A DNA stretch of 64,000 nucleotides from Acidovorax sp. GW101-3H11. Lineage in GTDB: Bacteria; Pseudomonadota; Gammaproteobacteria; Burkholderiales; Burkholderiaceae_C. The position numbers and the translations under genes are program-made. The DNA is taken from the NCBI RefSeq assembly GCF_001633105.1, contig NZ_LUKZ01000001.1, positions 151,350 through 215,349 of the forward strand, written 5' to 3'. Every line of letters begins with the position of its first letter. Within the stretch, counting starts at the first letter, position 1. This document shows, piece after piece, positions 2 through 18,557 of the stretch. The notes beneath the pieces were generated by a model. That model saw nothing but the letters and a program-made list of their open reading frames with translations, made no database searches and was not told the origin of the DNA.

Positions 2-2521
2 GCCACCGGCACCGGCACCGGCACCGGTGTGAGCACCAGCACCCACAACACGGGCAGCACACCGCCATCTGACAAGGCCCCTTTCGAGCTGCAAGCCGCG
101 CTCTCTACCCCGCAGCTGGACCTGTCCCTGCCCCCAGGCCAGGGCGCAGGTGGCGCCACCGCCGTGCAGCTGCGCGCCGTCAAGGCCGACCTCTCTGGCA
201 CCCTGGCGCAGGCTACGCTGGTGCTGGACGGCGAAGCGCGCCTCAACGCGTCCCAGCCCCGGCAGATGCAGCAGCTGGCCCTGCACACCCGCGCCACCGG
301 TGGGCTGGGCACACCCGCACAAGGCACACAAGGCGCACAAAGCGCGCAGGTCCAGATCAGCACACTGCGGCTGGTGGCGCAAGATGCCGCACGCCCCGGC
401 CCCTGGACGCTGCAGCTGGCCGAACCCCTGTCCCTCACCACGCGCGCCACCCCCAGCGCTGGTGCGTCGTCGCCAGCGGCGGGCTACACCGTGCAGGCCT
501 CGGCAGGCCAGGCCCGCCTGACCGGCCCCCTGCCCGGCACCGCCACGCTGCGTTGGCAACCCCTGCGCGTGGCCACCGGTGCCAACCCGCTGCAACTGCA
601 AACCCAGGGCACGCTGCAAGGTCTGCCCATGGCCTGGGTCGATGCCCTGGGCCTCGCCGACACACCCGCCGCCGCAGGCCGCCCCACCCAGCCGCTGCTG
701 GCCCGCATGGGGCTGGCCACCAGCATCGTGCTGGACGGGCAATGGAACGTGGACACCACCCAGGGCCCCTTGCGCGCCAGCGCCAGCCTGCGCCGGGCCA
801 GTGGCGACCTGCGCATCCTGGCGGGCGATGCCACCGCCATCACCGCTGTGCAAAGCAGCGGCCAGGGCACGGGCGCAGGCGCCACCACCGTGATCGCCAC
901 CGAGGCGTCGGCCAGCCCTGCGGGATCAGCCAATGCACCAGGCACCGCCGCCGGGGTGCGCCAGGCCGAGGTCACCATGGAAATCGACGGCGAAGCCCTG
1001 CGCGCCCAGCTGGCCTGGGCCAGCGAGCGGGCTGGCGAGGTGCAGGCCAGCGCCAGCACCCGCCTCACACCCGGGGCTCCGCCGGGGGCAGCCCTCGCCT
1101 GGGCGCCCGATGCGCCACTGGCTGGCACGCTGCGCGCGCGCCTGCCCGACGTGGGGGTGTGGTCGGCCCTGGCCCCGCCCGGCTGGCGCGTGCGCGGCAC
1201 GCTGGACGCAAGCGCCACCCTGTCAGGCACGCGCAATGCGCCGCGCTGGGCCGGCACGCTGGGCGCCGACGACATGGCCGTGCGCTCGGTGGTCGATGGC
1301 GTGGACCTGCAAGCGGGCCGCCTGCGCGCCACGCTGCAAGGCAACCAGCTGCAGATCACCGAGTTCCGCCTGCAGGGCGGGCGCGGCAGCGGCGCGCGCA
1401 TTGCAGGCTTCAGCGGCAACCGCACCGCCGCGCCACAAGACGGCGGCACGCTCACCGCCACCGGCAGCGTGGGCTGGGGCGACAGCGCTGCGGCAACCAC
1501 CGGCCTGTCGGGCATCACCATGGCCCTGCAGGCCGAGGCCAAGGCCTTGCAGGTGCTGGTGCGCGCCGACCGGCAGGTCAGCGTGTCGGGCCAGCTGCAG
1601 GCGCAGTTGCAGCAGGGCCAGATCAGCCTGCGCGGCAAGCTCACCACTGACCGCGCCACCATCATCCTGCCCGACGAAACCGCGCCCAGCCTGGGCTCGG
1701 ACGTGGTCGTGCGCTCTGCCGCCAAAGACCGCGAAGACCAGGCCCGGGCCCAGGCCGCCGCCAAGGCCAGCCAGGCGGCGGCGCAGGCGGAAACCGCCAA
1801 ACCACCCGACATCGCCATCACGCTCAACCTGGGGCGCGACTTTGCGCTCAGCGGCCATGGCATCACCACCCGGCTCACAGGCGAGGTGGACATCCGCAGC
1901 AGCGCCGTGCCCGGCGCCCCGCCGCGCGTGACCGGCGAGGTGCGCACCGACGAAGGCCGCTACCGCGCCTGGGGCCAGATGCTGGACGTGGAGACGGGCC
2001 TGATCCGCTTCAACGGCCCCTACAACAACCCCTCGCTCGACATCCTGGCGCTGCGCCCCAACATCAGCGTGCGCGCGGGCGTGCAGGTCACGGGCAGTGC
2101 GCAGGCGCCCCGCGTCAAGCTCTATTCCGACCCCGACCTGCCCGACGCCGAAAAACTCTCGTGGGTGGTGCTGGGCCGCAACGCCACCGCAGGCGGCGCT
2201 GAAGCCGCTGTGCTGCAGCAAGCCGCTCTGGCCCTGCTCGGCCGCAAGGGCGGCAACACCGGCACCGCCAACATCGCCAGCCGCGTGGGCCTGGACGAGA
2301 TCGGTTTTCGCGGCGCCACCCCGGGCGACGACGCCAGCACTGCGGCCCTCACCTTCGGCAAGCGCCTGTCCAAGGATTTGTACGTGACGTACGAGCGCAG
2401 CCTGTCCGGCACGCTGGGCACGCTCTACATCTTCTACGACCTCTCCCGCCGCCTCACGCTGCGCGGGCAGACGGGCGAGAAAAGCGCGGTGGACATCATC
2501 TACACGGTGAAGTACGACTGA
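2..2521 (+). CDS. tamB: TamB-like translocation and assembly module protein, C-terminal part
   Basis: The reading frame is open to the left edge of the window, so this is the 3' portion of a longer gene: about 839 residues, against roughly 1,200-1,400 for typical TamB proteins. TamB spans the periplasm from the inner membrane and works with the outer-membrane partner TamA in moving lipids and/or inserting proteins into the outer membrane. The visible part has low-complexity Ala/Gly/Thr-rich beta-strand repeats expected of the beta-taco domain. It ends in the conserved DUF490 region, with a stretch containing KLYSDPDLPDAEKLSWVVLG followed by alternating strands up to the final TVKYD. The first visible codons are a short ACCGGC tandem repeat (Thr-Gly repeat). 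A GTG at 29 is in frame but is unlikely to be the real start. The identity is well supported by the C-terminal domain; tamA is expected upstream, outside the window. Confidence 0.88.
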   Translation, partial: ATGTGTGTGVSTSTHNTGSTPPSDKAPFELQAALSTPQLDLSLPPGQGAGGATAVQLRAVKADLSGTLAQATLVLDGEARLNASQPRQMQQLALHTRATGGLGTPAQGTQGAQSAQVQISTLRLVAQDAARPGPWTLQLAEPLSLTTRATPSAGASSPAAGYTVQASAGQARLTGPLPGTATLRWQPLRVATGANPLQLQTQGTLQGLPMAWVDALGLADTPAAAGRPTQPLLARMGLATSIVLDGQWNVDTTQGPLRASASLRRASGDLRILAGDATAITAVQSSGQGTGAGATTVIATEASASPAGSANAPGTAAGVRQAEVTMEIDGEALRAQLAWASERAGEVQASASTRLTPGAPPGAALAWAPDAPLAGTLRARLPDVGVWSALAPPGWRVRGTLDASATLSGTRNAPRWAGTLGADDMAVRSVVDGVDLQAGRLRATLQGNQLQITEFRLQGGRGSGARIAGFSGNRTAAPQDGGTLTATGSVGWGDSAAATTGLSGITMALQAEAKALQVLVRADRQVSVSGQLQAQLQQGQISLRGKLTTDRATIILPDETAPSLGSDVVVRSAAKDREDQARAQAAAKASQAAAQAETAKPPDIAITLNLGRDFALSGHGITTRLTGEVDIRSSAVPGAPPRVTGEVRTDEGRYRAWGQMLDVETGLIRFNGPYNNPSLDILALRPNISVRAGVQVTGSAQAPRVKLYSDPDLPDAEKLSWVVLGRNATAGGAEAAVLQQAALALLGRKGGNTGTANIASRVGLDEIGFRGATPGDDASTAALTFGKRLSKDLYVTYERSLSGTLGTLYIFYDLSRRLTLRGQTGEKSAVDIIYTVKYD

Positions 2522-2575
2522 GGCTTCGGCGGCCAAAGAGGCCCGCGCGCGCCACTACAATGCGCGGCGGCTTAT

Positions 2576-2650
2576 CTCCTCGTAGTTCAATGGATAGAAC
2601 GAGTGCCTCCTAAGCGCTAGATACAGGTTCGATTCCTGTCGAGGGGACCA
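2576..2650 (+). tRNA. tRNA-Arg (anticodon CCT)
   Basis: A 75-nt cloverleaf can be folded by eye. The acceptor stem is CTCCTCG (2576-2582) with CGAGGGG (2640-2646) and one G-U pair. The D stem is GTTC/GAAC, the anticodon stem 2602-2606/2614-2618 carries the loop CTCCTAA, and the T arm is ACAGG-TTCGATT-CCTGT. The anticodon is CCT at 2609-2611, which reads AGG arginine codons, rare in this GC-rich genome. The CCA tail (2648-2650) is encoded. The gene lies 54 bp downstream of the tamB-like stop codon. Confidence 0.96.
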
Positions 2651-2667
2651 AAGTTTTGATACAAAAC

Positions 2668-2720
2668 GGCCCCTACCGCGCGACCATCAAGCGCTTATAG
2701 CTATTAAATTTATAGCAAAC
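2668..2720 (+). repeat. Dispersed Comamonadaceae-type short repeat, copy A
   Basis: The segment contains GCGCGACCATCAAGCGCT followed by a TATAGCTATTAAATTTATAGC tail. An almost identical copy lies at 16371-16442, and more diverged relatives are at 42661-42726, 58621-58682 and, inverted, 7519-7591. It sits between the tRNA gene and the promoter of the following operon. No coding potential is apparent. The AT-rich tail stands out sharply from the surrounding GC-rich sequence. Confidence 0.6.
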
Positions 2721-2806
2721 AACGTACCCACCTCCTGCGGTACGTGCCGATGGCCATCCCTGGCGCCCCGTTTCGCCGCACTTGCATTTGGTCACAAATG
2801 ATGATG

Positions 2807-2835
2807 TTGACATGATATGTCTGCATCCCTATTCT
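2807..2835 (+). promoter_or_regulatory. Likely sigma-70 promoter of the yjfI-pspA-flotillin-ATPase operon
   Basis: A perfect -35 box TTGACA (2807-2812) is separated by exactly 17 bp from TATTCT (2830-2835), which matches four of six -10 positions. Transcription would begin near 2842. That leaves an untranslated leader of about 60 nt before the GTG start at 2904 and would make the alternative ATG at 2844 almost leaderless. This is a prediction from sequence only. Confidence 0.6.
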
Positions 2836-2903
2836 CCTGATCCATGCAGGCACACGGAGCTTCCTCCGGCCGCCTGCCCCACCCGCAGGATGAAGGAGAC
2901 GCC

Positions 2904-3320
2904 GTGGCCACTTTGCTGGAACAACTCAACAACCTGGACGTGCTGACCTCGGCGCTCATGGGCGGTGTGGCGGTGCAGTTGCAGCCCATTGCGGGTGATG
3001 TGCCCGTGGTGCAGGTCAGCATCGAGGGGCGCGACGAGCTGCCCATTTTCGTGACCTGCTCGGACATGCAGATGATCTGCCTGTGCTATCTGTGGACCGA
3101 CGCCGACGTGCGGCCCGAGCGGCGGGCCGAGCTGATGGAAGCGCTGCTCGATTTGAATCCCTCCGTACCCCTGTCGGCCTTTGGCCGCGTGGATGGCCGC
3201 TTCGTGCTGGTCGGCGCCCTGAGCCGCGCGGCCCGCGCCGAAGATGTGGCGCACGAGGTGGCGGTGCTCAGCGACAACGCGCTCGATGCGCTCGATGCGC
3301 TGGCGGAATTCCTGCGCTGA
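2904..3320 (+). CDS. yjfI: YjfI family protein (DUF2170)
   Basis: This is a small cytosolic protein of 138 residues, close to the length of E. coli YjfI, of unknown biochemical function. In enterobacteria yjfI precedes yjfJ, which encodes a PspA/IM30-type protein, and the same pair occurs here. The sequence has a mixed alpha/beta pattern with conserved-looking segments around VSIEGRDELPIFVTCSD and LNPSVPLSAFGRVDGRFVL. I chose the GTG at 2904 because it is preceded by AAGGAG with a 5-nt spacer. The in-frame ATG at 2844 would add 20 unconserved-looking residues and lies almost on the predicted transcription start. It is the first gene of a seven-gene operon. Confidence 0.85.
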   Translation: MATLLEQLNNLDVLTSALMGGVAVQLQPIAGDVPVVQVSIEGRDELPIFVTCSDMQMICLCYLWTDADVRPERRAELMEALLDLNPSVPLSAFGRVDGRFVLVGALSRAARAEDVAHEVAVLSDNALDALDALAEFLR

Positions 3321-3388
3321 GCTACCCGCGCATTCCGCCGCCCCACCTTTCTTTCCCCAAGCTCTTTCGACATTGACAGGAGAACACC

Positions 3389-4132
3389 ATGTCGGTCATC
3401 AAGAAACTCGTCACCCTGCTGCGCGGCAGCGCCCGTGAACTGGGCCAGAGCGTGGTCGATGGCAACGCCACGCGCATCTATGAGCAAGAAATCATCGACG
3501 CCAAAAGCAGCATCACCGAGGCCAAGACCGAGCTGACCGGCGTGATGGCCAAGCAGATGCAGACGGCGCGCGACATCGAGCGCATCAAGGCCGATCTGCT
3601 GCGCCATGAAGACCTGGCCGTGCAGGCGCTGAACAAGGCCGAGGAAGGCCTTGCGCTGGAAGTGGCCGAGCGCGTTGCGGGGCTGGAAACCGAGCTGAAC
3701 GCGCAGACCCAGGCCCATGCCAGCTACGCCATGCAGGTGTCGCGCCTCAAGGACCTGATCCGCGCGGCCGAAACCCGTGTGCGCGAGCACGAACGCGAGA
3801 TCGGTATCGCCAAGACCACCGAGAGCGTCTACCGCGCCACGCAGAGCATCTCTGAAAGCATCGGCGCCACCGGCTCGCAGCTGACCAGCGCACGCGACTC
3901 GCTGGAGCGCATCAAGAAGCGCCACGAAGACCTGGCCGACCGCATGGCCGCCGCCGAGCAGCTGGACCAGGAGTTTGGCCACCGCGCGCTGGAGCGCAAG
4001 CTGGCCGACGCAGGCATTGGCGACAGCGACAAGGTGCGCGCCGCGCAGGTGATGGAGCGGCTGAAGGCGCGGCAGGCTGCAGCGGCAGCCGCCCCCGGCA
4101 CAACCACCACCACGCCCCCCTCCGCACCATGA
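3389..4132 (+). CDS. yjfJ: PspA/IM30 family protein (YjfJ-like)
   Basis: The 247-residue product is almost entirely alpha-helical coiled coil from about residue 20 to 215, with the N-terminal amphipathic helix (MSVIKKLVTLLRG) typical of PspA/IM30. Proteins of this family are bacterial relatives of ESCRT-III: they polymerise on the inner face of the cytoplasmic membrane and protect or remodel it under stress. The C-terminus is a disordered Ala/Thr/Pro tail (from about residue 228) not found in short PspA proteins. A good ribosome site (GGAG) precedes the ATG. The stop codon overlaps the next start (ATGA), which implies translational coupling. The neighbouring yjfI and flotillin genes match known PspA-family contexts. 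Confidence 0.88.
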   Translation: MSVIKKLVTLLRGSARELGQSVVDGNATRIYEQEIIDAKSSITEAKTELTGVMAKQMQTARDIERIKADLLRHEDLAVQALNKAEEGLALEVAERVAGLETELNAQTQAHASYAMQVSRLKDLIRAAETRVREHEREIGIAKTTESVYRATQSISESIGATGSQLTSARDSLERIKKRHEDLADRMAAAEQLDQEFGHRALERKLADAGIGDSDKVRAAQVMERLKARQAAAAAAPGTTTTTPPSAP

Positions 4133-4569
4133 GCCCCGCAGCACCGCGCAAGCCGGTGCGTTGGCAGGGCTCCGAGCCCGCCCTGCGCGCCGTGCAGGTC
4201 GCCTTCGATGTGGAAGAAGCGGTGATGGAAGCCATCCGGGTCGCGGCCTTCCACGCCAATGTGTCCACCTCCACCCAGATCCGCAGCGTGCTGAACCTGC
4301 CCGTGGCCGCGCGCCCCAAGCGTCCGCGCCTGACCGTGACGCTGGACACGGGCGACTACACGCTGCTGGCCGGGCGCTATGGCCTGGCACCCGACGACCG
4401 CCTGGGCATCAAGGAGGCTGCCACGCGTGAACTGATCGCGTTTGTGGAGCAGGTGCCCGCTGCCCCCTCGCAGGCCGCGCTGCCCGGCAAGCCCGCCAAG
4501 GGGGGCAACATCAAAACCACGGAGCAGCCTCCCCCACCACGCAAGGGCAAAGGAAAAAGCGGGCCCTGA
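4129..4569 (+). CDS. Small hypothetical protein with two ribbon-helix-helix-like halves
   Basis: I do not recognise a named family. The 146-residue protein has two segments of similar layout, each a short beta strand followed by two helices. The first starts at RAVQVAFDVEEAVMEAIRVA (about residue 22). The second starts at RLTVTLDTGDYTLLAGRYGL (about residue 66) and continues into a helix ending AFVEQ. This spacing resembles a ribbon-helix-helix unit duplicated in one chain, but that is a visual judgement, not a domain match. The C-terminal 40 residues are Pro/Lys-rich and probably disordered. It overlaps the PspA-like gene by 4 nt, so it is made with it and may regulate the operon or act as an adaptor. 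Confidence 0.6.
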   Translation: MSPAAPRKPVRWQGSEPALRAVQVAFDVEEAVMEAIRVAAFHANVSTSTQIRSVLNLPVAARPKRPRLTVTLDTGDYTLLAGRYGLAPDDRLGIKEAATRELIAFVEQVPAAPSQAALPGKPAKGGNIKTTEQPPPPRKGKGKSGP

Positions 4570-4637
4570 ACCCGGCGCAGCTTTCATCAAACAGTCCTCG
4601 ACACAGACACAACATACGAGGAACAGGAGGGAATTTC

Positions 4638-5282
4638 ATGTTTGCCAATCTCATCGCGGCGGCCACCAGCTTTCCGACCGCCATCTACACCGTGCTGCTG
4701 GGCGTGGTGCTGGTGTATTGGCTGCTGGCCATCGTGGGCATGGTGGATTTCGAATCCAGCGGCATTGACCTGGACATCGAGGCCCACGCCGACGCCAGCG
4801 CCGACGACCTGGGCGCCATCGCCAGCTACGTGGTGGCATTCGGCCTGAGCGGCGTTCCGTTCTCCATCGTGGTGAGCCTGCTGGTGCTGGTGGGCTGGAC
4901 GCTGTCGTGCCTGGCCGCCGTCACGCTGCAGGCGTGGATCCCTACCGACATCCTGCGCTGGCTGGCGGGCCTGGCCATCCTGGCCGTGTCGGCCGCGCTG
5001 TCGCTGGTGATCACGGCGCGCATCGTGCGGCCGCTGCGGGGCCTGTTTGTGCACCACACGGCGCAAAGCAATGCATCGCTGGTGGGCCAGACCTGCAAGG
5101 TGCTGACCGGCGTGGTGGACGAGCGCCAGGGCCGGGCCGAAGTGGCCCAGCGCGGCGCCAGCATCAATGTCCGCGTGTGGTCACCCAGCCCCAACACGCT
5201 CAAGCGCGGCGACACCGCCCTGATCACCGAATACGACGCAGGCACCCACCGGTACCTGGTGATGCCGATGCCCCCCGCGTGA
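4638..5282 (+). CDS. YqiJ-like inner-membrane protein with C-terminal OB-fold (DUF1449/NfeD-related)
   Basis: The 214-residue protein has hydrophobic segments near residues 15-37, 66-92 and 110-130. A soluble C-terminal domain (about 145-210) starts ASLVGQTCKVLTGVVDERQG and has the beta-rich pattern of the OB-fold of YqiJ/NfeD proteins. In E. coli, yqiJ sits directly before the flotillin gene yqiK, as the homologue does here. NfeD-type OB domains are thought to act with flotillins in membrane microdomains. The start at 4638 is supported by AGGAGGG seven bases upstream. Family placement is from architecture and context. Confidence 0.78.
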   Translation: MFANLIAAATSFPTAIYTVLLGVVLVYWLLAIVGMVDFESSGIDLDIEAHADASADDLGAIASYVVAFGLSGVPFSIVVSLLVLVGWTLSCLAAVTLQAWIPTDILRWLAGLAILAVSAALSLVITARIVRPLRGLFVHHTAQSNASLVGQTCKVLTGVVDERQGRAEVAQRGASINVRVWSPSPNTLKRGDTALITEYDAGTHRYLVMPMPPA

Positions 5283-5385
5283 CCCTGCCCAGGCCCGAGG
5301 TCTGGGCAGCGCAACACACCGGTTGCCCTGTTTTCCGTTTTTCACTGTTTTCTTCAGTTCCACCCTTTCAGCAGAAAGTGTTCTC

Positions 5386-7512
5386 ATGCAGCAATCCTTC
5401 ATGGTCATCCTGATTGCCGTTGGCGTTCTTGTCTTCCTGATCCTGGCGATGTTCGCCATGTTCGCGAAGTTCTACCGCAAGGTGGAACAAGGCCACGCGC
5501 TCATCATCAACACCCTGCGCTCCGAGCCCGAAGTCACCTTCACCGGTCGCATGGTCTACCCCATCATCCACAAGGCCGAGCTGATGGACATCTCGGTCAA
5601 GACCATCGAGATCGACCGCTCGGGCGACCAGGGCCTGATCTGCGCGGACAACATCCGCGCTGACATCAAGGTGAAGTTCTTCGTGCGCGTGAACAAGACG
5701 GCCGAGGACGTGCTGCGCGTGGCCCAGGGCATTGGCTGCGCGCGCGCCTCCAACCACGAGATTCTGGAAGACCTGTTCTCGGCCAAGTTCTCCGAGGCGC
5801 TCAAGACGGTGGGCAAGTCGCTCGATTTTGTGGACCTGTACCAGGCGCGCGACCGCTTCCGCGACAAGATCATCGAGCAGATTGGCGATGACCTGTCGGG
5901 CTATGTGCTGGAAGACGCGGCCATCGACTACCTGGAGCAGACGCCGCTGTCCAAGCTCGATGCCAACAACATCCTCGATGCGCAAGGTATCAAGAAGATC
6001 ACCCAGCTCACGGCCGTGGAACACGTGGTGACCAACGAGCTGCGCCGCAACGAGGAAATGCAGATCAAGAAGAAGAACGTGGAAACGCAGGAAGCCCTGC
6101 TGGAGCTGGAACGCCAGCAGGCCGACGCCACCGCGCGCCAGGCCCGCGAAGTGGCCACCGTGAAGGCACGCGAAGAAGCCGAAACCTCCAAGATCCAGGC
6201 CGAGGAGCGCACCCGCTCCGAAATGGCGCGCCTGCAGTCAGAGCAGCAACTGGCTGTGCAGCAGGAAAACGTGCTGCGCGAGAAGGAAGTGGCCGAGAAC
6301 AACCGCAAGCGCGCCGTGGTGATCGAGCAGGAACGCGTGACCCGTGCGCAAGAGCTGGAAGTGGTGGCGCGCGAGAAGGAAGTGACGCTGCAGCGCATTG
6401 AAAAAGACAAGGCCGTGGAAGTGCAGAAGAAGGCCATTGCCGACGTGGTGCGCGAACGCATCGTGGTCGAACGCACCGTGGCCGAGCAGGAAGAAGCCAT
6501 CAAGGAAGTGCGCGAAGTGGCCGAAGCCGACCGCACGCGCAAGTCCATAGTGATTGGCGCCGAGGCTGCGGCCGAAGAGAAGGTCATCATGGAAGTGAAG
6601 ACCGCCGAGGCGCAAGAGCGCAAGGCCCGCCACAAGGCAGCCGAAGACCTGGTGCTAGCCGATGCGCGCCTGAAGGTGGCTGAACGCGATGCCGAAGCCA
6701 AAAAGCGCGATGCCGAAGGCATTGAAGCCCTGACCGCAGCGCCCGGCCTGGCCGAAGCCAAGGTGCAGATGGCCAGTGCCAGCGCCAAGCTGGCCACCAT
6801 GGAGGCCGAAGCCAGCGGCAAGGAAAAAGTGGGCCGTGCCGAAGCCCAGGTCATCGAAGCCCAGGCCCAGGCCGAGGCCGTGGGCCTGCGTGCCCGCATG
6901 GAAGCCGAAGCCGCTGGCAAAGAGAAGGTCGGCCAGGCCGAAGCCCTGGTGCGCACCGTGGACGCCGAAGCCCTGGCCAAGATGGGCGATGCCGAGGCGC
7001 ACAACATCGATGTGAAGTTCAACGCCGAAGCGCGCGGCCTGAAGGAAAAGTTCGAGGCCATGAAGGCCATGAGCCCCGAGACCCGCGAGCACGAGGAATA
7101 CCGCATGCGCCTGGAGCGCGCACACACCGAAACCCTCAAGGGCATCGAGGCACAAACCGCCATCGCCAAGGAGCAGGCCGAGGTGCTGGGCGTGGCCCTG
7201 CAGAACGCCAAGATCGACATCGTGGGCGGCCAGGGCGACTACTTCGACAGCTTTGTGCGCGCGCTGTCGGTGGGCAAGGGCATCGACGCCACGGTGGGCA
7301 AGAGCCAGACGCTGCAGGTGGCCTTCAAGGACCAGCTGAGCGGCGAGCGTGATGTGGTGGAAGACGTCAAGCAGATCCTGAGCGCCGCCGGTGGGTCGGC
7401 CGGTGAGCTGCAGAACCTGAGCGTCTCGGCCCTGCTCACGCGCATTGCCACCCAGGGCACGGATAGCCAGAAGCAGGCGCTGCAGCAGCTGCTGCAAGGG
7501 CTTCGCAAGTAA
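5386..7512 (+). CDS. yqiK: Flotillin family membrane scaffold protein (YqiK-like)
   Basis: The 708-residue protein starts with one transmembrane segment (about residues 6-28), followed by a band-7/SPFH domain (about 30-200). A very long charged coiled coil rich in Ala, Glu, Lys and Arg (about 210-590) contains flotillin-type repeats such as AEAQVIEAQAQAEAVGL, and a C-terminal segment is rich in small residues. Flotillins form large oligomeric cages that define lipid domains in the inner membrane. It is longer than E. coli YqiK, mainly in the coiled coil. I chose the ATG at 5386: a TTG at 5323 in the same frame would add a stretch unlike the family. Its neighbours (YqiJ-like, PspA-like, giant ATPase) suggest a membrane-stress complex. 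Confidence 0.9.
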   Translation: MQQSFMVILIAVGVLVFLILAMFAMFAKFYRKVEQGHALIINTLRSEPEVTFTGRMVYPIIHKAELMDISVKTIEIDRSGDQGLICADNIRADIKVKFFVRVNKTAEDVLRVAQGIGCARASNHEILEDLFSAKFSEALKTVGKSLDFVDLYQARDRFRDKIIEQIGDDLSGYVLEDAAIDYLEQTPLSKLDANNILDAQGIKKITQLTAVEHVVTNELRRNEEMQIKKKNVETQEALLELERQQADATARQAREVATVKAREEAETSKIQAEERTRSEMARLQSEQQLAVQQENVLREKEVAENNRKRAVVIEQERVTRAQELEVVAREKEVTLQRIEKDKAVEVQKKAIADVVRERIVVERTVAEQEEAIKEVREVAEADRTRKSIVIGAEAAAEEKVIMEVKTAEAQERKARHKAAEDLVLADARLKVAERDAEAKKRDAEGIEALTAAPGLAEAKVQMASASAKLATMEAEASGKEKVGRAEAQVIEAQAQAEAVGLRARMEAEAAGKEKVGQAEALVRTVDAEALAKMGDAEAHNIDVKFNAEARGLKEKFEAMKAMSPETREHEEYRMRLERAHTETLKGIEAQTAIAKEQAEVLGVALQNAKIDIVGGQGDYFDSFVRALSVGKGIDATVGKSQTLQVAFKDQLSGERDVVEDVKQILSAAGGSAGELQNLSVSALLTRIATQGTDSQKQALQQLLQGLRK

Positions 7513-7518
7513 AAACAT

Positions 7519-7591
7519 AGCAGCCAGCGTTTAACGCACCAGAATTTCAAGCCTTTTGTCTTGAGACCACTGGGCACAAGCGCTGGCAGCT
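7519..7591. repeat. Inverted relative of the dispersed short repeat
   Basis: The arms AGCAGCCAGCG (7519-7529) and CGCTGGCAGCT (7581-7591) are inverted copies with one mismatch. The enclosed sequence read on the minus strand resembles the short repeat seen elsewhere in the window. It fills most of the 95-bp gap between the flotillin gene and the next gene. The hairpin could slow transcription within the operon, but there is no U-run typical of a terminator. Confidence 0.4.
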
Positions 7592-7607
7592 ACCCATTGA
7601 GCAGCAG

Positions 7608-7919
7608 ATGTTCGCCCAACCCTGGTTCTTGCCGGTCATCAGTTGCCTGCTCATGACCATCCCTGCCTTCCTGCTGCGACGCTGGATCACACGAAAAACC
7701 GGCCGAACGTCACTCCCCCTTAGTCACCCCTGGCAACTGCTGTTTGTGGCTGTGTGCGCCTACTTTGCGCCACACAACCTCTCCGATGCCTCTGCCTGGT
7801 GGCTGCTCTTTGGAGTCCTGCAAGCAGCGTCCGTGGCTGATCTGGCGCTGCAGTGCCTTGTTGGCAAAAGGGATCTGCCCGAAACGCCCCCACCCGCCCC
7901 AATGAACGATGCGCCATGA
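7608..7919 (+). CDS. Small two-helix membrane protein of unknown function
   Basis: The 103-residue protein is not recognised. It has a probable N-terminal membrane segment (about residues 5-24: FLPVISCLLMTIPAFLLRRW) and a second hydrophobic stretch around residues 45-85 containing AWWLLFGVLQAASVADLALQ. A short Pro-rich tail follows. The stop codon overlaps the start of the giant ATPase gene (ATGA), so the two are probably translationally coupled and the protein may help place the ATPase at the membrane. It could equally be a minor accessory gene. Confidence 0.65.
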   Translation: MFAQPWFLPVISCLLMTIPAFLLRRWITRKTGRTSLPLSHPWQLLFVAVCAYFAPHNLSDASAWWLLFGVLQAASVADLALQCLVGKRDLPETPPPAPMNDAP

Positions 7920-10900
7920 CTACTGCACCTAGCAGCACTGATACCCCCGTCGAAGACGCCGCCATCGACACCAGCGTGGCCGAAAGCAGCAGCTACGAGT
8001 TGCTGAAAAAGCGCCTGGAAGCCCAGGGCGACCAGCTGCTGTCCAAGGCCCAGGCGCTCAATGCGGCACGCATTGAACAGTTCGGCCAGCGCGACCAGCA
8101 GCTCCTGATGCGCCTGCGCGCGCGCACCGAGCACAACTGCGTGGCGCGAGACCTGGCCTACATCGGTGGCAACCGGTTGCTGTTTGGCTACAACGTGTTC
8201 ATGGGCCTCCGGCGCGAGACGCGGGTGGAGGACGTGTTTGCGCTGTACGAGCTGGCGCACCACGACACGAACAGTGAAGGGGTGGGCGCGCCCGAGAGCG
8301 ATGAACTGGTGCAGGTGCCCATGGCGGGCAGCTTTCTGGACGACCCGCGTTTTGTGGCCGACTTCAACGAGCTGTACACCTATTACAAGCAGGCCACGCT
8401 GCAGCTGCTGCGGCCCACACCGGAGTTTCTGCTGGCAGCGTTCCAGATCGGACAGCAGGCGCAGGACATCCGCGTGTTCCGCTGGCGGCGCGAAAGCGAT
8501 GGCTCGCTGAAGTACGTGGACAACCGGGGCGAGCGCGACCTGACGCCGCCGCCCAGCCACGACTTCAGCTGGACACCCCTGACGCGTGAGCACCATGTGG
8601 GCGGTGCCCACCCGCACATCAATGTGCTGGACACGGTGTTTGTCGAAACCGTGGGCGGCACGCTTACCGTGAAGGTCGAGAACAACACCGAGACCGGCCT
8701 GGGCATCTACGAAGAGCCCGTGGACGACGCCAACCAGGCGCTGGGCGACGCCGAGTTTGCCTATGCCAAGCTGGGCCTGTTGATCCTGCTGCAGGTGCGC
8801 CCCTACCGCGAGAGCACCACGCGCTACCTGGTGTTCAACCAGCGCACGCAGCAGGTGGTTCGCATCGACGCAATCGGCGCATCATGCATGCAGCTGCCGG
8901 AGGACCACGGCATCATCTTCCCCGGTGGCTACTACCTGCAGTCGGGCGAAACCAAGCGTTTTGACCTGCCCCCCGAGCTGACCGAGCAGCTGCGCTTCAC
9001 GCGCATGAAGCGCTCGCCCAACGGCGAGGACGTGGCCTACATCTTCTATGGCACCGTGCCGCCGCCGCAGGGCAGCCCAGCCACGCTGGATGCGGGCTGC
9101 TACGCCCTCTTCACCTACAACCTCATCGAAAAATCGCTCGCACCGCCCATCCTGGCCGACGGGTACAGCACCTTCCCCGATGGGCGCATGCTGGTGTTCC
9201 AGGCCGCGCGCGGCGAGGCCACGCGCGTGCACCCCATGCAGCTGTGGCGCACGCCGTTTGCGACCGAAGAACACGCCAGCCGCCAGCCCGCAGGCACGGG
9301 CTTTTTCGGGCGCGTGGGCAATGCCGACCTGGTGCGCGGCATTTCGGACCTGCTGGGCATTGCGCGCATGGTGCGCGAACAGGTCCCCACGCGCACTGCG
9401 TACGAAGACCTGATCCGCCAGTGCCAGCGCGCACGCGACGCCTACTTCTGGCTCGACGCGGGCGAGGTGCAGAACGCAGCGGCCGACCTGGGTGGCATCG
9501 AGCAGGCCGCGCAGGCCACGCTGGGCGAGTTTGAAAAGGTCGAAAGCATCCGCCAGGACACCACCCGCGCGCTGCACAAGGCCGAAGGCCAGCAGCGCGA
9601 GCTAATGACCGCCATTGCCAGCCAGCTGTGGCGCAGCCCCAGCGACTTTGTGCAGGCGCTGGACCGCCTGCGCCAGCGCCAGGGCGAGCTGCACCTGCTG
9701 CGTGAACTGCGCTATGCCGACCTGGCCACCATCGATGCGATGGCCGCGCAACTGACGGCCGAGCAGCAGCGTGTGGGCGAGCGCGCGCTGCAGTTCCTGT
9801 CCGACGAAAAAGCCTTTGACGGCCAGCGCCAGGCCCTGGCCAAGGTGGCTACCGCCCTGCCCCAGGCGACGACGGCGGGGCAGTTGGCCGAACACCTGAC
9901 CACGCTGGACACCGAAGCCGCGAGCCTCGACCTGCTCAGCGAACAACTGGGCAGCCTGCCCGGCGGCGATGCGGTACAGCGCACCACCATCCTCGACCGC
10001 ATTGCGCTGCTGTACGCCGACATCAACCGCCTGCGCGCCGATGCCCGCGCGCGCCGCCGCAACCTGGGTGCGGCCGAGCAGCGGGCCGAGTTTGGCGCGC
10101 AGTTCAAGCTGTTCGGCCAGGCGGTGGAAAACGCGCTGGAGCTGTCGGACACGCCCGAAAAGTGCGACGAAGCGCTGACCCGCCTGCTCGCGCAACTGGA
10201 AGACATTGAAGGCCGCTTTGCCGAGCAGGAAGAGTTTCTGGCCGACATCGCCACCCAGCGCGAAAGCGTGTACGAGGCGCTGTCGGCCCGCCGCCAAAGC
10301 CTGGTGGATGCACAACAGCGCCGCGCCAAGGCCCTGGCCGACGCGGCCACGCGCGTGCTGGACGGCGTGCCGCGCCGCATCGCGGGGTTTGGCGAGCTGG
10401 CCCAGGTGCACAGCTACTTTGCATCCGACCCCATGCTGGCCAAGCTGCGCGAGCAGGTGGCCGAGCTGCGCCGCCTGGGCGCGGCCGTGGCGGCGGACGA
10501 CATCGACACGCGCCTGAAAACCGCCCGCGACCAGGCCGTGCGCGCGGTGCGCGACCAGCGCGACCTGTCGGCCGGTACCGGAGGCGGCCTGAAGCTCGGC
10601 AGCCACACCTTCACCATCAACAAGCAGCCGCTGGATCTGACCCTGGTCGCCCACGGTGATGGCCTGGCCTGGCAGATCACCGGCACCGACTACCTGGCCC
10701 CGGCGCACCATGACCGGCTGGAGGCGCTGCGCCCCTTCTGGCAGCAGGCGCTGGTGTCTGAAGCACCGCAGCTGGCGCGCGCCGAATACCTGGCTGCTGA
10801 ATGGCTGGAGGCCCAGCAGCGCGGCGAGGCCGAGCCTGGCTGGAGCGAGCTGCTGGTGCAGCTGGCCGAGCACGCGCGCACCGATGGCACCGATGGCACC

Positions 10901-13546
10901 GACGGCACCGAGCCCAGCACCGCGCCCGCCGTGCTGCTGGATTCGCTGCGCCGCTTTGCTGCCAGCCGCTACCAGGAGGGCTACCAGCGCGGCATCCATG
11001 ACGACGACGCCCTGGCCATCGTGCGGGTGCTAGCGCCCATCCAGGACGCGGCTGGGCTGCTGGTCTATGGCCCGGCCGAACGCGCGCTGGCCAAGCTCTA
11101 TTGGCACCTGGGCCTGCGCGAGGAAAGCCGCCATTCCCTGGCGCGCCGCGCCCGCAGCGCACAGCACATTGCCCAGCTGTTTTCAAAGACCCACCTGCGC
11201 GACACGCTGGAGGCCGAATCCGCGCAAGGCCTGCGCCAGTTTGTGGAGCAGCACCCCGTGCTGGCCGCTGAATGGCTGCCCGAACTGGCCCAGGCACTGA
11301 GCATCGGCGATGCGGAAGGAGCAAGCGACGAGGCCCTGCTGCGCACGCTGGTGGAAGAGTCCGGTGCCTACCTGGTGCGTGAGCTGGCGCAGACCGAGAT
11401 CGGCACCGCCGAGCTGTCGCCCATTACACCCCAGTGGGTCATCAGCAACACCGGCGCGGACCTGGTGCAGGCCCTGCAGCGCGCGCTGGACCACGGCGGC
11501 CTGGCCAGCGCCTGGCTGCGCGATCTGAACGCGGCCGAGCCGCTGGAGCGCTGGCGCCTGGCGCGCGGCTGGCTGCGCGCGTTTGCGGCCACACAAGCCA
11601 CGGCCGATGGCACCACACCGGGCCTGGCATGGATTGATGACGCGGCCACGGCGCTGACCTTCCAAGGCACGCGCCGCCGCATCAACACCACGCTGGATGC
11701 GCAGGTGGCCGGGCTGCGCAGCGAACACACGCGCATCCAGCACGGCGCGCTGGCGTTCAACCTCAACGACTTTCGCCGCCGCGTGCGCCACCACCGCAGC
11801 CACGCAGTGCAGGGCTTCACGGAGCTGCAGGCCCTGCGGCACGAGCTGCTCGTGCAAGAAAAAGCGCGCCTGCACCTGGCGCAGTTCCAGGCCAAGCCGC
11901 TGGCCACCTTTGTGCGCAACCGGCTCATTGACGAGGTGTACCTGCCGCTGGTGGGCAACAACCTGAGCAAACAACTGGGCGCCGCTGGCGACAGCGCACG
12001 CACCGACCGCATGGGCATGCTGCTGCTGATCTCGCCGCCCGGCTACGGCAAGACGACGCTGATGGAGTACGTGGCCAACCGCCTCGGCCTGGTGTTTGTG
12101 CGCATCAACTGCCCCGCCCTGGGCCACGGCGTGACCAGCATCGACCCCAGCACCGCGCCCAACAGCGCGGCGCGGCAAGAGCTGGAAAAGCTCAACCTGG
12201 GCCTGGCCATGGGCAGCAACGTGATGCTGTACCTGGACGACATCCAGCACACGCACCCCGAGTTCTTGCAGAAGTTCATTGCGCTGGCCGATGGCACCCG
12301 CCGCATCGAGGGCGTGTGGCAGGGCCAGCCTCGCACCTGGGACATGCGCGGCAAGCGTTTTGCCATCGTGATGGCGGGCAACCCGTACACCGAGTCGGGC
12401 GACGTGTTCCGCATCCCCGACATGCTGGCCAACCGGGCCGACATCTACAACCTGGGCGATGTGCTCTCGGGCCGCGAGGCGGTGTTTGCGCTGTCGTACA
12501 TCGAAAACAGCCTGACCGCCCACCCCGTGACCCAGCCCCTGGCTGCGCGCGAGCCGCAGGATGTGCACCTGCTGGTGCGCATGGCCCAGGGCGAGGCCAT
12601 CGACACCAACAGCTTCGCCCACCCCTACAGTGCGGTGGAGCTGCAAGAGCTCAAGGGCCTGCTGCAGCGCCTGTTCAAGGTGCGCGACGTGCTGCTGAAG
12701 GTAAACCTGGCCTACATCGCCTCGGCCGCGCAGGACGACCGCTACCGCGAAGCGCCGCCCTTCCGCCTGCAAGGCAGCTACCGCAACATGTCGCGCCTGG
12801 CGCCGCAGGTCACGCCGCTGATGCAGGACGATGAACTGGACGCGCTGCTGCGCGACCACTACCGGGGTGAGGCGCAAACGCTGACCACCGGCGCCGAAGA
12901 AAACCTGCTGCAGCTGGCGCAGCTGATAGGCCGCCCCACGCCCCAAGAGCAGGAGCGCTGGGACCAGATCCGGGGCGACTACCAGCGCCAGCGCAAGATG
13001 GGCGGCGCCGAGGATGACCCGAGCGTGCGCGTGACGCGTGGCCTGCTGGACATTGCCCGCAGCGTGGAAGCACTGCAGCCCCGCAAAGCCACCGAGCAGC
13101 TCACGCAGCACATCACCCAACATGTCGCCCAGCCCCTGGCCGCGATTGCGCAGCACCTGGCGCAGCCCACGCCCGCACAGCAGGCGCAAGGTGCGGCACT
13201 GACCCGCATCGAGCCCGCTCTGGCCGCCTTGGCAGAACTGGCCCAGCACCTGCAGCAAGGCACCACCCAGACCCAGGCCCAGATGCGCGCCAGCCTGGAC
13301 GCCACGGCCCAGGCGCTGCAGGCCTTGCAGGCCAGCACACACACGCTGCACGCCCATAGCGACCAGGCCCAGGCCCAGCGCATGGTGGACGCGCTGCTGT
13401 CGCTGTCCGTCACCTACCGCCAGCTCATCATGCCGCTGGTGCGTGCTGTGGAAAGCCGCGTGGGTGCCGACGCCAAGATGCACCAGGAGGTGGAGCGGCT
13501 GGAGGGCATGATCGACAACCTGCGCGGCGCGCCGCCCGCCAAGTAG
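7916..13546 (+). CDS. Very large DUF3686 / AAA+ ATPase ('DNA repair ATPase' family)
   Basis: The 1876-residue protein is of the type annotated as DNA-repair ATPase, although its real role is not established. An N-terminal DUF3686-like region (about residues 30-480) is followed by long helical, coiled-coil-prone stretches (about 500-900). A C-terminal AAA+ module carries the Walker A SPPGYGKTT near residue 1375, the Walker B VMLYLDDIQ near 1437, and a sensor-like FAIVMAGNP. The last 250 residues are helical and Gln/Ala-rich. A 9-bp tandem repeat at about 10883-10912 encodes DGTDGTDGTE. The start at 7916 is fixed by the ATGA overlap with the small membrane protein gene. Its place after a PspA-like and a flotillin gene suggests that it remodels a membrane scaffold, much as Vps4 does with ESCRT-III; this is inference. 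Confidence 0.8.
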   Translation: MTTAPSSTDTPVEDAAIDTSVAESSSYELLKKRLEAQGDQLLSKAQALNAARIEQFGQRDQQLLMRLRARTEHNCVARDLAYIGGNRLLFGYNVFMGLRRETRVEDVFALYELAHHDTNSEGVGAPESDELVQVPMAGSFLDDPRFVADFNELYTYYKQATLQLLRPTPEFLLAAFQIGQQAQDIRVFRWRRESDGSLKYVDNRGERDLTPPPSHDFSWTPLTREHHVGGAHPHINVLDTVFVETVGGTLTVKVENNTETGLGIYEEPVDDANQALGDAEFAYAKLGLLILLQVRPYRESTTRYLVFNQRTQQVVRIDAIGASCMQLPEDHGIIFPGGYYLQSGETKRFDLPPELTEQLRFTRMKRSPNGEDVAYIFYGTVPPPQGSPATLDAGCYALFTYNLIEKSLAPPILADGYSTFPDGRMLVFQAARGEATRVHPMQLWRTPFATEEHASRQPAGTGFFGRVGNADLVRGISDLLGIARMVREQVPTRTAYEDLIRQCQRARDAYFWLDAGEVQNAAADLGGIEQAAQATLGEFEKVESIRQDTTRALHKAEGQQRELMTAIASQLWRSPSDFVQALDRLRQRQGELHLLRELRYADLATIDAMAAQLTAEQQRVGERALQFLSDEKAFDGQRQALAKVATALPQATTAGQLAEHLTTLDTEAASLDLLSEQLGSLPGGDAVQRTTILDRIALLYADINRLRADARARRRNLGAAEQRAEFGAQFKLFGQAVENALELSDTPEKCDEALTRLLAQLEDIEGRFAEQEEFLADIATQRESVYEALSARRQSLVDAQQRRAKALADAATRVLDGVPRRIAGFGELAQVHSYFASDPMLAKLREQVAELRRLGAAVAADDIDTRLKTARDQAVRAVRDQRDLSAGTGGGLKLGSHTFTINKQPLDLTLVAHGDGLAWQITGTDYLAPAHHDRLEALRPFWQQALVSEAPQLARAEYLAAEWLEAQQRGEAEPGWSELLVQLAEHARTDGTDGTDGTEPSTAPAVLLDSLRRFAASRYQEGYQRGIHDDDALAIVRVLAPIQDAAGLLVYGPAERALAKLYWHLGLREESRHSLARRARSAQHIAQLFSKTHLRDTLEAESAQGLRQFVEQHPVLAAEWLPELAQALSIGDAEGASDEALLRTLVEESGAYLVRELAQTEIGTAELSPITPQWVISNTGADLVQALQRALDHGGLASAWLRDLNAAEPLERWRLARGWLRAFAATQATADGTTPGLAWIDDAATALTFQGTRRRINTTLDAQVAGLRSEHTRIQHGALAFNLNDFRRRVRHHRSHAVQGFTELQALRHELLVQEKARLHLAQFQAKPLATFVRNRLIDEVYLPLVGNNLSKQLGAAGDSARTDRMGMLLLISPPGYGKTTLMEYVANRLGLVFVRINCPALGHGVTSIDPSTAPNSAARQELEKLNLGLAMGSNVMLYLDDIQHTHPEFLQKFIALADGTRRIEGVWQGQPRTWDMRGKRFAIVMAGNPYTESGDVFRIPDMLANRADIYNLGDVLSGREAVFALSYIENSLTAHPVTQPLAAREPQDVHLLVRMAQGEAIDTNSFAHPYSAVELQELKGLLQRLFKVRDVLLKVNLAYIASAAQDDRYREAPPFRLQGSYRNMSRLAPQVTPLMQDDELDALLRDHYRGEAQTLTTGAEENLLQLAQLIGRPTPQEQERWDQIRGDYQRQRKMGGAEDDPSVRVTRGLLDIARSVEALQPRKATEQLTQHITQHVAQPLAAIAQHLAQPTPAQQAQGAALTRIEPALAALAELAQHLQQGTTQTQAQMRASLDATAQALQALQASTHTLHAHSDQAQAQRMVDALLSLSVTYRQLIMPLVRAVESRVGADAKMHQEVERLEGMIDNLRGAPPAK

Positions 13547-13585
13547 GCCGGAACAGCGCGCAAGGCGCTGCGTCTGCGCCGGTGC

Positions 13586-14488
13586 TCAGGCCGGTTGCGG
13601 CGCCGCCCCCGGCGCTGCGGGCGCACGCGCCGTGAGCGCGCTGCCCATCGAGGCGGCCATGATGCAGCCAATGGCCAGCCACTGCACCACGCTCAGGTGC
13701 TCGCTCAGCAAGGCCATGGCGACCAGCGCGGCCACGGCGGGTTCCATGCTGATCATGATGCCGAAGGCCTCCTTGGGCAGGCGCTTCAGGGCCATCATCT
13801 CCAGCGATATGGGCACTGCGCTCGACACCGCTGCCACCGCCACGCCGATCAGCAACAGGCTGGGCGAGAGCAGCGCCGCGCCCGCATGCGCCACGCCCAC
13901 TGGCACCACCACCAGCGCTGCCACCAACAGGCCCAGCGACACCGAATGCCCCGCGTGCAAATGCCCCGCGCGTTTGCCAAACACGATGTACAGCGCCCAG
14001 AACACCGCCGCGCCCAGCGCGTAGGCCACGCCCACCGGGTCCAGCATGCTGCCGTTGAGCCCCAATGGCAGCAGCAGCCCCAGCCCCGCGATGGCCAGCA
14101 GCACCCAGACAAAATCCACTGCGCGGCGCGACGACCAGATGGCCACGGCCAGCGGCCCCGCAAACTCGATGGCCACGGCCAGGCCGAACGGCAGCGTGCG
14201 CAGCGACATGTAGAACATCAGGTTCATGCCGCCCAGGGCTGCGCCGTACAACACCACCGACTTCGCATCGGCCCGGCTCAGGTGCCAGCGCCAGGGCCGC
14301 CACAGCAACAGCACCACCAGCGCCGAGAACCCCACCCGCAGCGCCGTGGTGCCCTGCGCCCCTACGGCCGGAAACAGCCAGTGTTTGGCCCAGGATGTGC
14401 CAATGCCCAGCGCCGTCACAGAGCCAAGCACGGCAAGAAAGGGGAGAAAACGGTGGAACACCGCAGAGGTAGAGAAAGAAACTGGCAT
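13586..14488 (-). CDS. EamA/RhtA-type exporter of the drug/metabolite transporter superfamily
   Basis: The 300-residue, highly hydrophobic protein has about ten transmembrane helices in two EamA repeats. It resembles RhtA-type threonine/homoserine exporters (segments such as GTSWAKHWLFPAVGAQGTTALR and ISLEMMALKRLPKEAFGIMI). It would export amino acids or related small molecules across the inner membrane. The ATG at 14488 is preferred over an in-frame TTG at 14494. It is transcribed divergently from an Lrp-type regulator 99 bp away, a common arrangement in which the regulator responds to an amino acid and controls its exporter. The substrate cannot be read from sequence. Confidence 0.8.
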   Translation of the reverse strand: MPVSFSTSAVFHRFLPFLAVLGSVTALGIGTSWAKHWLFPAVGAQGTTALRVGFSALVVLLLWRPWRWHLSRADAKSVVLYGAALGGMNLMFYMSLRTLPFGLAVAIEFAGPLAVAIWSSRRAVDFVWVLLAIAGLGLLLPLGLNGSMLDPVGVAYALGAAVFWALYIVFGKRAGHLHAGHSVSLGLLVAALVVVPVGVAHAGAALLSPSLLLIGVAVAAVSSAVPISLEMMALKRLPKEAFGIMISMEPAVAALVAMALLSEHLSVVQWLAIGCIMAASMGSALTARAPAAPGAAPQPA

Positions 14489-14519
14489 GCGCAAAAATAT
14501 AGTTCGCTCACGCCGTGTT

Positions 14520-14544
14520 TTTGACTCTGATTTGAGGGGTCAAA
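14520..14544. promoter_or_regulatory. Dyad in the exporter-lrp intergenic region, possible Lrp operator
   Basis: TTTGAC (14520-14525) and GTCAAA (14539-14544) form an inverted repeat centred at 14532 between the divergent exporter and Lrp genes. One further pair near the centre is preserved. Lrp/AsnC proteins often bind AT-rich imperfect dyads next to their own gene. Assignment to the adjacent regulator is inference. Confidence 0.4.
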
Positions 14545-14587
14545 CGCAACTTTCACTCGCCCGTTCTCGCCCCGCACGAGGTTTCGC

Positions 14588-15076
14588 ATGACCGCACCCG
14601 CCGTACTCGACCGCTTCGACCTCGCCATCCTGGACATCCTGCAGTCCGACAACACCACGCCCCAGCGCGTGATCGCCCAGGCCGTGAACCTCTCGGCCCC
14701 GGCCGTGCAGCGGCGCATCCAGCGGCTGCAGAACACCGGCGTGATCCGCGCCAACGTGGCCGTGCTCGACCCGGAAAAGGTCGGCAAGCCCCTGACCATC
14801 ATCGTGGAGGTGCACCTGGAGAACGAACGCCCTGACCGCACCGCCCCGCTGCGCGCGCGCATCGCCGCCGAAGCGGCCGTGCAGCAGTGCTACAGCGTGA
14901 CAGGCGAGGCGGACTACCTGCTGGTGGTGACGGTGGCCTCGATGACCGACTACCAGGCGCTGACGCGGCGCCTGTTTGAAGGCGACGACAACGTGCGCTG
15001 GTTTCGGACCTCGGTGGCGCTGGAATGCATGAAGACGGGGCTGCGGGTGCCGCTGGACACCGGCCCCGGCATCTGA
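14588..15076 (+). CDS. Lrp/AsnC family transcriptional regulator
   Basis: The 162-residue protein has an N-terminal winged helix-turn-helix (about residues 5-60, with IAQAVNLSAPAVQRRIQRL as the DNA-reading part). A C-terminal RAM/ligand-sensing domain (about 68-150) includes CYSVTGEADYLLVV. Lrp-type regulators form octamers or dimers that bind amino acids and activate or repress nearby transport or metabolic genes. The divergent RhtA-like exporter is the obvious target. The stop codon touches the convergent panE stop. Confidence 0.9.
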   Translation: MTAPAVLDRFDLAILDILQSDNTTPQRVIAQAVNLSAPAVQRRIQRLQNTGVIRANVAVLDPEKVGKPLTIIVEVHLENERPDRTAPLRARIAAEAAVQQCYSVTGEADYLLVVTVASMTDYQALTRRLFEGDDNVRWFRTSVALECMKTGLRVPLDTGPGI

Positions 15077-16075: not shown

Positions 16076-16081
16076 GGTTAA

Positions 16082-16261
16082 GAGCCTATTCAAAGTCTTT
16101 TTGGAGTCACACAAGTCCCTTGCCCGAAGGGTTGGAGTGAAATCGGGCGATTGAACGCCCCGGCTGCTTGCATGGGCACGAGCCCATGCGGCGCATCCGA
16201 AGCATCCACTTCATCACGATGGCCCTCCAATGCGATCTCCAAAAAGACCTTGAACAGGCTC
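16082..16261. mobile_element. 180-bp MITE-like element with TAA target duplication
   Basis: Terminal inverted repeats start GAGCC and run 25 bp with two mismatches (16082-16106 against 16237-16261). The left arm contains CAAAGTCTTTTTGGAG and the right arm contains its near-complement. Each end is flanked by TAA (16079-16081 and 16262-16264), consistent with a 3-bp target-site duplication of TNA type as made by IS1031-group IS5-family transposases. The interior has no credible gene, so it is a non-autonomous element. It lies directly against the panE start codon. Confidence 0.75.
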
Positions 16262-16442: not shown

Positions 16443-16451
16443 CCCATACCA

Positions 16452-18552: not shown

Positions 18553-18557
18553 TGAAA

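Follow-up and report, generated by a model that had tools for sequence, protein, structure and literature searches.

The 64,000-nucleotide stretch of Acidovorax sp. GW101-3H11 analysed here (contig NZ_LUKZ01000001.1, positions 151,350 to 215,349; hereafter the window) carries at 2807-13546 an operon encoding a PspA-family protein, a YqiJ-flotillin pair and a giant DUF3686 ATPase, whose AAA+ domain is predicted to be of the MoxR type. The third gene of this operon likely encodes its own ribbon-helix-helix (RHH) repressor, predicted to act on a palindrome that overlaps the −35 box. The seven open reading frames (ORFs) lie on one strand, the first opening at 2844 or 2904 and the last ending at 13546, and the genes are conserved in relatives, which bears out the seven-gene operon proposed in a preliminary description of the window, where genes 3 and 6 had gone undiscussed. 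An exact 13-bp operator read by a dedicated repressor family would offer a handle on how PspA-type protection is controlled in cells without PspF, and a gene cluster known mainly as a parts list would become a testable stress circuit.

The palindrome GACAT-N3-ATGTC (13 bp) lies upstream of gene 1, a YjfI/DUF2170 gene, where it is joined to the −35 box. In the window it is present as GACATGATATGTC at 2809-2821, a strand-neutral element and the sole perfect match (0.04 expected), for which the comparison of loci predicts a role as operator of the gene-3 protein. A promoter had been proposed at this place before, and a sigma-70-like TTGACA-17-TATTCT is found at 2807-2835 on the + strand; it is conserved in relatives and also carries the conserved palindrome, but is weak when taken alone (1 match found vs 0.8 expected in shuffles of the region). 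For perfect-site loci, a −10-like hexamer was chosen at whichever of three spacings (16-18 bp) scored highest, and it is often weak. RNA polymerase requires no fixed sequence in the promoter spacer; the conservation of the downstream half-site within the spacer therefore points to a regulator. A sigma-54 promoter for the operon found no support: a strict −24/−12 pattern gave 0 matches upstream in the 60 loci with gene 1, including those of Pseudomonas, although a sigma-54 site has been proposed for P. aeruginosa.

The position of the site bears on the sign of control. Activators may bind near the −35 box and the sign is not visible in sequence, which leaves room for a gene-3 protein that activates from the palindrome instead of repressing. 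An operator overlapping the −35 hexamer is, however, in a position typical of repressors, and the palindrome is fused to an exact TTGACA in 49/51 perfect-site loci, so that activation is regarded as very unlikely.

To relate the palindrome to gene 3, two sets of loci were compared, namely all 51 DUF2170 loci of a 398-genome sample and an ATPase set of 88 loci, the latter consisting of the window, 7 loci from the 398-genome sample and 80 from a contig search (the best 80 of 560 confirmed, biased to near relatives), with genes called by profiles made from the loci themselves. The sets share two loci, the window and L014. In the DUF2170 set, a perfect site precedes DUF2170 in 20/20 loci with gene 3 vs 2/31 without it (Fisher test 3e-12, uncorrected for phylogeny; resampled control 2/10,200). 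In the ATPase set, where gene 3 is present in 36/88 loci, the site was found in 33/35 loci with gene 3 vs 1/41 without (control 3/7,000), after 12/88 loci lacking the first gene or upstream DNA had been dropped. All 44 perfect sites in 835 kb of gene-3 loci precede gene 1, and the 971 kb without gene 3 contain one site. Two weak gene-3 matches, in G063 (E 2.8e-12) and G187 (E 4.1e-5), were left out of the gene-3 counts; among the other 21 genomes with a gene-3 match, 20 have DUF2170, G203 being the exception.

Genome-wide, TTGACATNNNATGTC occurs in 19/20 gene-3 genomes vs 2/24 without gene 3; it is present in 14/14 chosen Betaproteobacteria with gene 3 (12 with a single place) and also in Ottowia. 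In the host genome (5.44 Mb in 38 contigs), GACATNNNATGTC has two places, the operon promoter and C9:593762, the latter being rejected as a regulon member on account of its location within an ORF on the other strand (judged by eye) and its G+C-rich centre. Because TTGACATNNNATGTC mostly has a single place in gene-3 Betaproteobacteria, the palindrome looks dedicated to the operon in the window's relatives. Where the operon is divided, as in genome G007, in which one contig carries gene 3 with DUF2170-PspA and a second the YqiJ-flotillin-ATPase genes, both promoters bear the site. The DUF3686 gene of this genome (L012) is split by an in-frame TGA, and the palindrome ahead of the operon is intact. 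In Ottowia (L022), genes 1-5 stand together with the palindrome, ~80 kb from the ATPase.

The palindrome might alternatively be read by a different regulator, with gene 3 supplying an accessory DNA- or protein-binding factor. The association of palindrome and gene 3 partly follows lineages, it is broken by L057 and L079, whose two genomes do not contain TTGACATNNNATGTC, and G168 and G269 have the site with gene 3 not detected; these points favour a different regulator. Contrasts at close range oppose the involvement of a different regulator: within family f13 the site is present in 5/5 loci with gene 3 vs 0/7 without, and in genome G154 two sites are found at the DUF2170 locus that adjoins gene 3 and none at a second DUF2170 locus, which is without gene 3. 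Family f39 gave 6/6 loci with gene 3 vs 2/3 without. Considering also the genome-wide counts of TTGACATNNNATGTC, a regulator other than gene 3 appears quite unlikely.

Gene 3 (4129-4569, + strand; 146 aa) is predicted to encode a tandem RHH protein, acting as autorepressor, with two beta-alpha-alpha units in one chain. The model places a strand at residues 22-24 followed by helices at 30-43 and 47-54, and again a strand at 70-72 followed by helices at 74-84 and 91-108, the predicted local distance difference test values of these blocks being 62-92. Pfam gave no match for the window proteins of genes 3, 4 and 5, and RHH_1 was matched in 2/26 relatives (best E 7.6e-4). Two beta-alpha-alpha units per chain are likewise found in 9f0x_G, which we take to be TraY, and in single-chain Arc (1u9p); identity to gene 3 is 9-20% over the aligned part, the targets of these proteins are different, and the function of gene 3 is predicted. 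The ribbon would be the DNA-binding part, the observed link between protein and DNA being the association of gene 3 with the palindrome. A sequence search against solved structures gave weak, uninformative matches only for gene 3 and the ATPase; up to E 1, genes 4 and 5 had no match.

In several gene-3 relatives, extra sites were found ahead of other genes. These targets include canonical-looking pspA (2), SPFH genes that stand alone, are paired with NfeD or follow a small gene (7), an rpoH-like sigma-factor gene (3, all in one genus, two of them checked by Pfam), nhaA (1), glnE (3, one of them checked by Pfam), Tim44-like genes (2) and S51 peptidase genes (2); an M16 peptidase gene lies behind an extra site once in Motilimonas and once in the betaproteobacterium Andreprevotia. 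In Motilimonas eburnea, gene 3 follows DUF2170-PspA under two sites and eight further sites lie elsewhere, with none of the sites ahead of the YqiJ-flotillin-ATPase genes. A tally compiled by hand put the extra sites at 34 for 21 gene-3 genomes, with 10 adjoining PspA/SPFH/flotillin genes against 0.15 expected, a value resting on a guess of 15 such genes per 3,500; in 6/10 of these the PspA or SPFH gene is second, behind a small gene or NfeD, and co-transcription was assumed. Sites with no clear target (G320 C1, G342 C3 and C25:77114, G203, G406 C4) were kept in the 34 as misses, as were glnE and S51 peptidase, which on their face are not membrane-related; the single Ramlibacter site, without clear target, and the second Andreprevotia site stand outside the tally. 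Some of the extra sites are attributable to chance, because the pattern read backwards as a control also occurs in 10/44 genomes of the genome-wide comparison and in 2/22 genomes of a further set.

The chances appear evenly balanced that the gene-3 family serves as master repressor for a so far unrecognised, PspF-independent, phage-shock-like regulon and acts through TTGACAT-N3-ATGTC. In several relatives the units of this putative regulon would be scattered (YjfI-PspA, canonical pspA, NfeD-SPFH pairs, YqiJ-flotillin-ATPase, a heat-shock-type sigma gene, Tim44-like, M16), and in Betaproteobacteria including the window the core units would have been joined in one operon that has just one operator. 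If this holds, the repressor-operator pair would place PspA, SPFH/NfeD scaffolds and a MoxR-type motor within one regulon, and PspA, the SPFH scaffolds and the motor would be parts of one membrane-repair machine.

To define the partners of the ATPase, its neighbourhood was surveyed in the ATPase set. YqiJ and flotillin genes stand beside it in 80/82 loci with at least 3.5 kb of upstream DNA, and DUF2170, PspA, YqiJ and flotillin are all present in 58/77 loci with at least 7 kb; in two exceptions, Ottowia (L022) and an Azoarcus metagenome-assembled genome (L040), flotillin and PspA are located elsewhere in the genome. In the 398-genome sample, DUF3686 and the operon's flotillin type (E at most 1e-60) occur in the same 8 genomes, and DUF2170 occurs in 50/398, comprising all 8 DUF3686 genomes vs 42/390 others. 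Twelve plasmid records contain the ATPase, and the 11 examined, which span Proteobacteria, Deinococcota, Actinomycetota and Bacteroidota, have flotillin in 11, YqiJ in 10 and PspA in 2 cases, the gene order on the Hymenobacter plasmid being CesT_Tir, PspA, DUF1449, flotillin-like, ATPase. The co-occurrence foreseen in the preliminary description is thus found in the sampled loci, where DUF3686 nearly always adjoins YqiJ-flotillin and usually DUF2170-PspA, rather than lying mostly away from them. Since adjacency to flotillin and YqiJ is near constant and adjacency to PspA less so, the primary tie of the ATPase is with YqiJ-flotillin and the secondary one with YjfI-PspA. The nearest ATPases, by best segment, are those of Giesbergeria (91%) and of Acidovorax and Xenophilus (82%), from which the host probably belongs to the Comamonadaceae.

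PspA was searched for in 20 genomes, namely the window's own, 17 with YqiJ-flotillin-ATPase without adjacent PspA, and the two exceptions. It was found in 17/20; no PspA was found in two Aquabacterium and one Ramlibacter, whose assemblies are of unstated completeness. This bears on the Vps4 parallel drawn in the preliminary description. On a Vps4-like reading, the ATPase would be the motor that takes the PspA filament apart, with flotillin serving only to position it. The adjacency of PspA in 58/77 loci and the presence of DUF2170 in 8/8 DUF3686 genomes are in line with such a motor, and ATP-dependent remodelling has been put forward on grounds of analogy in passages of Ravi et al. (PMC11237479). 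The parallel is weakened, because the AAA+ domain is predicted to be MoxR-like and because YqiJ-flotillin-ATPase occurs in the three genomes without PspA found; moreover, 9/11 plasmid-record loci are without PspA in the stretch, compared with flotillin in 11/11. We consider a Vps4-like role unlikely.

Further genes accompany the ATPase in individual loci. On plasmid pQBR103 (L096, 1043-14247), yjfI-, J-, K-, L-, M- and C-like genes, a rhomboid gene, YqiJ, flotillin and the DUF3686 ATPase form one run, the yjf-like products being YjfI, PspA, DUF2491, DUF350, DUF1190 and glutathionylspermidine synthase; the run links two loci that are separate in E. coli. In Vibrio campbellii (L102, 13843-15621), a PLD-like gene and then a TelA (toxic anion resistance) gene follow the ATPase. 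PLD-like genes are found again in a cluster of 35 loci and rhomboid genes in one of 25, for the most part downstream, and the window belongs to neither cluster.

Gene 7 (7916-13546, + strand) encodes the DUF3686 ATPase of 1876 aa (PF12458, E 5.7e-180; with a weak Pfam AAA match in addition), in which a MoxR-like AAA+ domain is predicted at residues ~1320-1675 from the structural model and fold searches. The Walker A and B motifs, previously described as intact, are invariant in 86/86 aligned ATPases, Walker A being GYGKTT and the acidic pair of Walker B being Asp-Asp (window 12236-12241), as in DnaA. Also invariant in 86/86 are N1489, R1507 and GSYRN1620-1624, presumably sensor 1, the arginine finger and sensor 2, respectively. 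The ten best structural rows for the AAA+ model were all NorQ/CbbQ, and a pre-sensor-1 beta-hairpin is present. Vps4 was absent among the structural matches listed, which does not exclude it, and Pfam gave no MIT match. No VWA domain was found by Pfam among the seven operon proteins, a partner elsewhere in the genome not having been sought, and the ATPase has no protease domain by Pfam and no clear membrane anchor, with one borderline hydrophobic segment.

Database names suggest that DUF3686 is a DNA-repair ATPase: the Pfam description reads 'ATPase involved in DNA repair', several plasmid records read 'DNA repair ATPase', Foldseek ranks RuvB first by E-value, and 8 loci, of which 7 are from Pseudomonas, have a recJ-like gene (by eye) at a distance of ~3 kb downstream. 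Structural realignment, in contrast, puts MoxR proteins above RuvB, the recJ-like neighbour was seen in one group of loci only, and DUF3686 is kept beside membrane-protein genes across phyla, which makes a function in DNA repair highly improbable.

With gene 3 as repressor and the ATPase as partner of the flotillin scaffold, the following course of events may be envisaged. In the unstressed cell, the gene-3 protein would occupy 2809-2821 and obstruct RNA polymerase. Damage to the membrane would lift the repression, perhaps with PspA or YjfI either being withdrawn or acting upon the gene-3 protein. PspA would coat and support the damaged inner membrane, with YjfI as a chaperone-like partner, and YqiJ-flotillin would build a membrane-anchored scaffold. 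The ATPase would dock mainly on this scaffold and use ATP to remodel the complexes held there, in a manner that may be closer to NorQ/CbbQ/RavA or to the FtsH-HflKC pair than to Vps4. In work on the DUF3686 ATPase, the flotillin scaffold would accordingly replace PspA or DNA repair as the focus.

Among known systems, the MoxR proteins NorQ and CbbQ share with gene 7 the predicted AAA+ core, the pre-sensor-1 beta-hairpin, the candidate arginine finger and the sensor-2 motif; RavA is a MoxR AAA+ protein as well. Gene 7 differs from MoxR proteins in the very large size of its N-terminal part, which contains DUF3686 and DUF7902, and in its Walker B Asp-Asp in place of the usual Glu. The E. coli psp system likewise has a PspA-family protein in a membrane-stress operon and is controlled by PspF and sigma-54, whereas no PspF-type gene is among the seven genes here and control is predicted to be exerted via the RHH protein. 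HflKC-FtsH also pairs an SPFH scaffold with an AAA+ machine. HflKC controls FtsH according to passages of PMC13086221; the ATPase of the window differs from FtsH in having neither a Pfam protease domain nor a clear membrane anchor.

The preliminary description had regarded the joint operon as under-described. The class itself is in print, including the comparison with the endosomal sorting complex required for transport (ESCRT): passages of Ravi et al. 2024 describe CesT/Tir(DUF2170)-PspA operons that also contain flotillin, YqiJ and a large AAA+ protein, besides shorter ones with flotillin and YqiJ and sometimes the ATPase (PMC11237479). As in the window, DUF2170 and PspA are adjacent there, in that order, and occur with TM-band-7-flotillin, YqiJ and the large AAA+ protein, which is described with an N-terminal beta-propeller and a coiled coil; some operons have a PLD gene (PMC11237479). 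From the identical gene context, the DUF3686 protein would be this large AAA+ protein. The main-text passages contain no regulator, operator or MoxR assignment for this class, an RHH factor being given for another class, that with spermine synthase (PMC11237479). A related operon, bacABCDEF of P. aeruginosa, has been studied. Passages on it give bacA as DUF2170 and bacB as PspA-like, one transcript by reverse transcription PCR, and a 6.1- to 13.5-fold accumulation of five downstream proteins in the bacA mutant (PMC10948618), and passages of a further paper give PA14_16160 as short NfeD and PA14_16180 as an SPFH protein (PMC13086221). The bac operon thus overlaps the present one in its DUF2170, PspA-like, short NfeD and SPFH genes (PMC10948618, PMC13086221); the passages propose a sigma-54 promoter for bac, as opposed to the sigma-70-like promoter with palindrome here. 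Part of another source groups YqiJ with the NfeD partners of flotillins (PMC2636767), and PA3729 at 1.3-fold in pull-downs (PMC8926400) was treated as background. In the open-licence literature, no paper on DUF3686 and no description of a regulator of this operon were found, and the regulator-palindrome pair and its apparent regulon are apparently undescribed there.

The remaining genes of the operon are all on the + strand. Gene 1 (2904-3320; PF09938, E 1.8e-27 on the 2844 frame), CesT/Tir-like according to Ravi et al., more likely starts at GTG 2904 than at 2844, judged from the preceding aaggag and the alignment of this start in relatives. Gene 2 (3389-4132) belongs to the PspA/IM30 family (PF04012, E 1e-33) and is the sole PF04012 match of the host genome, which also has one DUF3686 match. 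The identities proposed earlier for YjfI, PspA/IM30 and DUF3686 are thus confirmed by Pfam, and that of YqiJ-flotillin by profiles built from genes 4 and 5 and their relatives. Gene 4 (4638-5282) encodes a YqiJ/NfeD2-type membrane protein with hydrophobic segments, its profile matching the L099 gene annotated DUF1449; gene 5 (5386-7512), which more likely starts at ATG 5386, encodes a flotillin/YqiK-type SPFH protein with one N-terminal hydrophobic segment, its profile matching SPFH/flotillin-annotated genes in L096, L098 and L101. A PHROGs search of all seven proteins gave no match. In place of the three 4-bp overlaps or short gaps reported previously, two 4-bp overlaps were found, between genes 2 and 3 at 4129-4132 and genes 6 and 7 at 7916-7919, the remaining gaps, measured from the assigned starts, being 68, 68, 103 and 95 bp.

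The product of gene 6 (7608-7919) is 103 aa long, has two hydrophobic segments and is without relative in the other 87 loci. The gene occupies a variable slot between flotillin and ATPase, which holds a zinc-ribbon gene in a 28-locus cluster and an EF-hand-like gene in a 13-locus cluster (clusters built by BLAST, one member each checked by Pfam, the EF-hand match being below cut-off). A Zn_ribbon_TFIIB protein is located there in many Betaproteobacteria (L029 9425-9970 and relatives).

Upstream of the operon and outside it lie a tRNA-Arg (cct) gene (2576-2650, + strand; ARAGORN) and a long ORF at 29-2521, TamB-like by eye; the next gene downstream is likely the ORF at 13586-14494 on the opposite strand (judged by eye). 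The tRNA-Arg gene was rejected as an integration site, a tRNA-end repeat being absent among the 20 of 45 direct-repeat families listed for 2400-20000. With a G+C content of 0.666 vs 0.672 for the window, the operon shows no sign of recent arrival, though DUF3686 is patchy (8/398 genomes; 12 plasmid records, some chromosome-sized). A 48-bp direct repeat (2676-2723 and 16395-16442, 92% identical), of which one copy is just 5' of the promoter and the other 13.7 kb away, is probably an interspersed genomic repeat.

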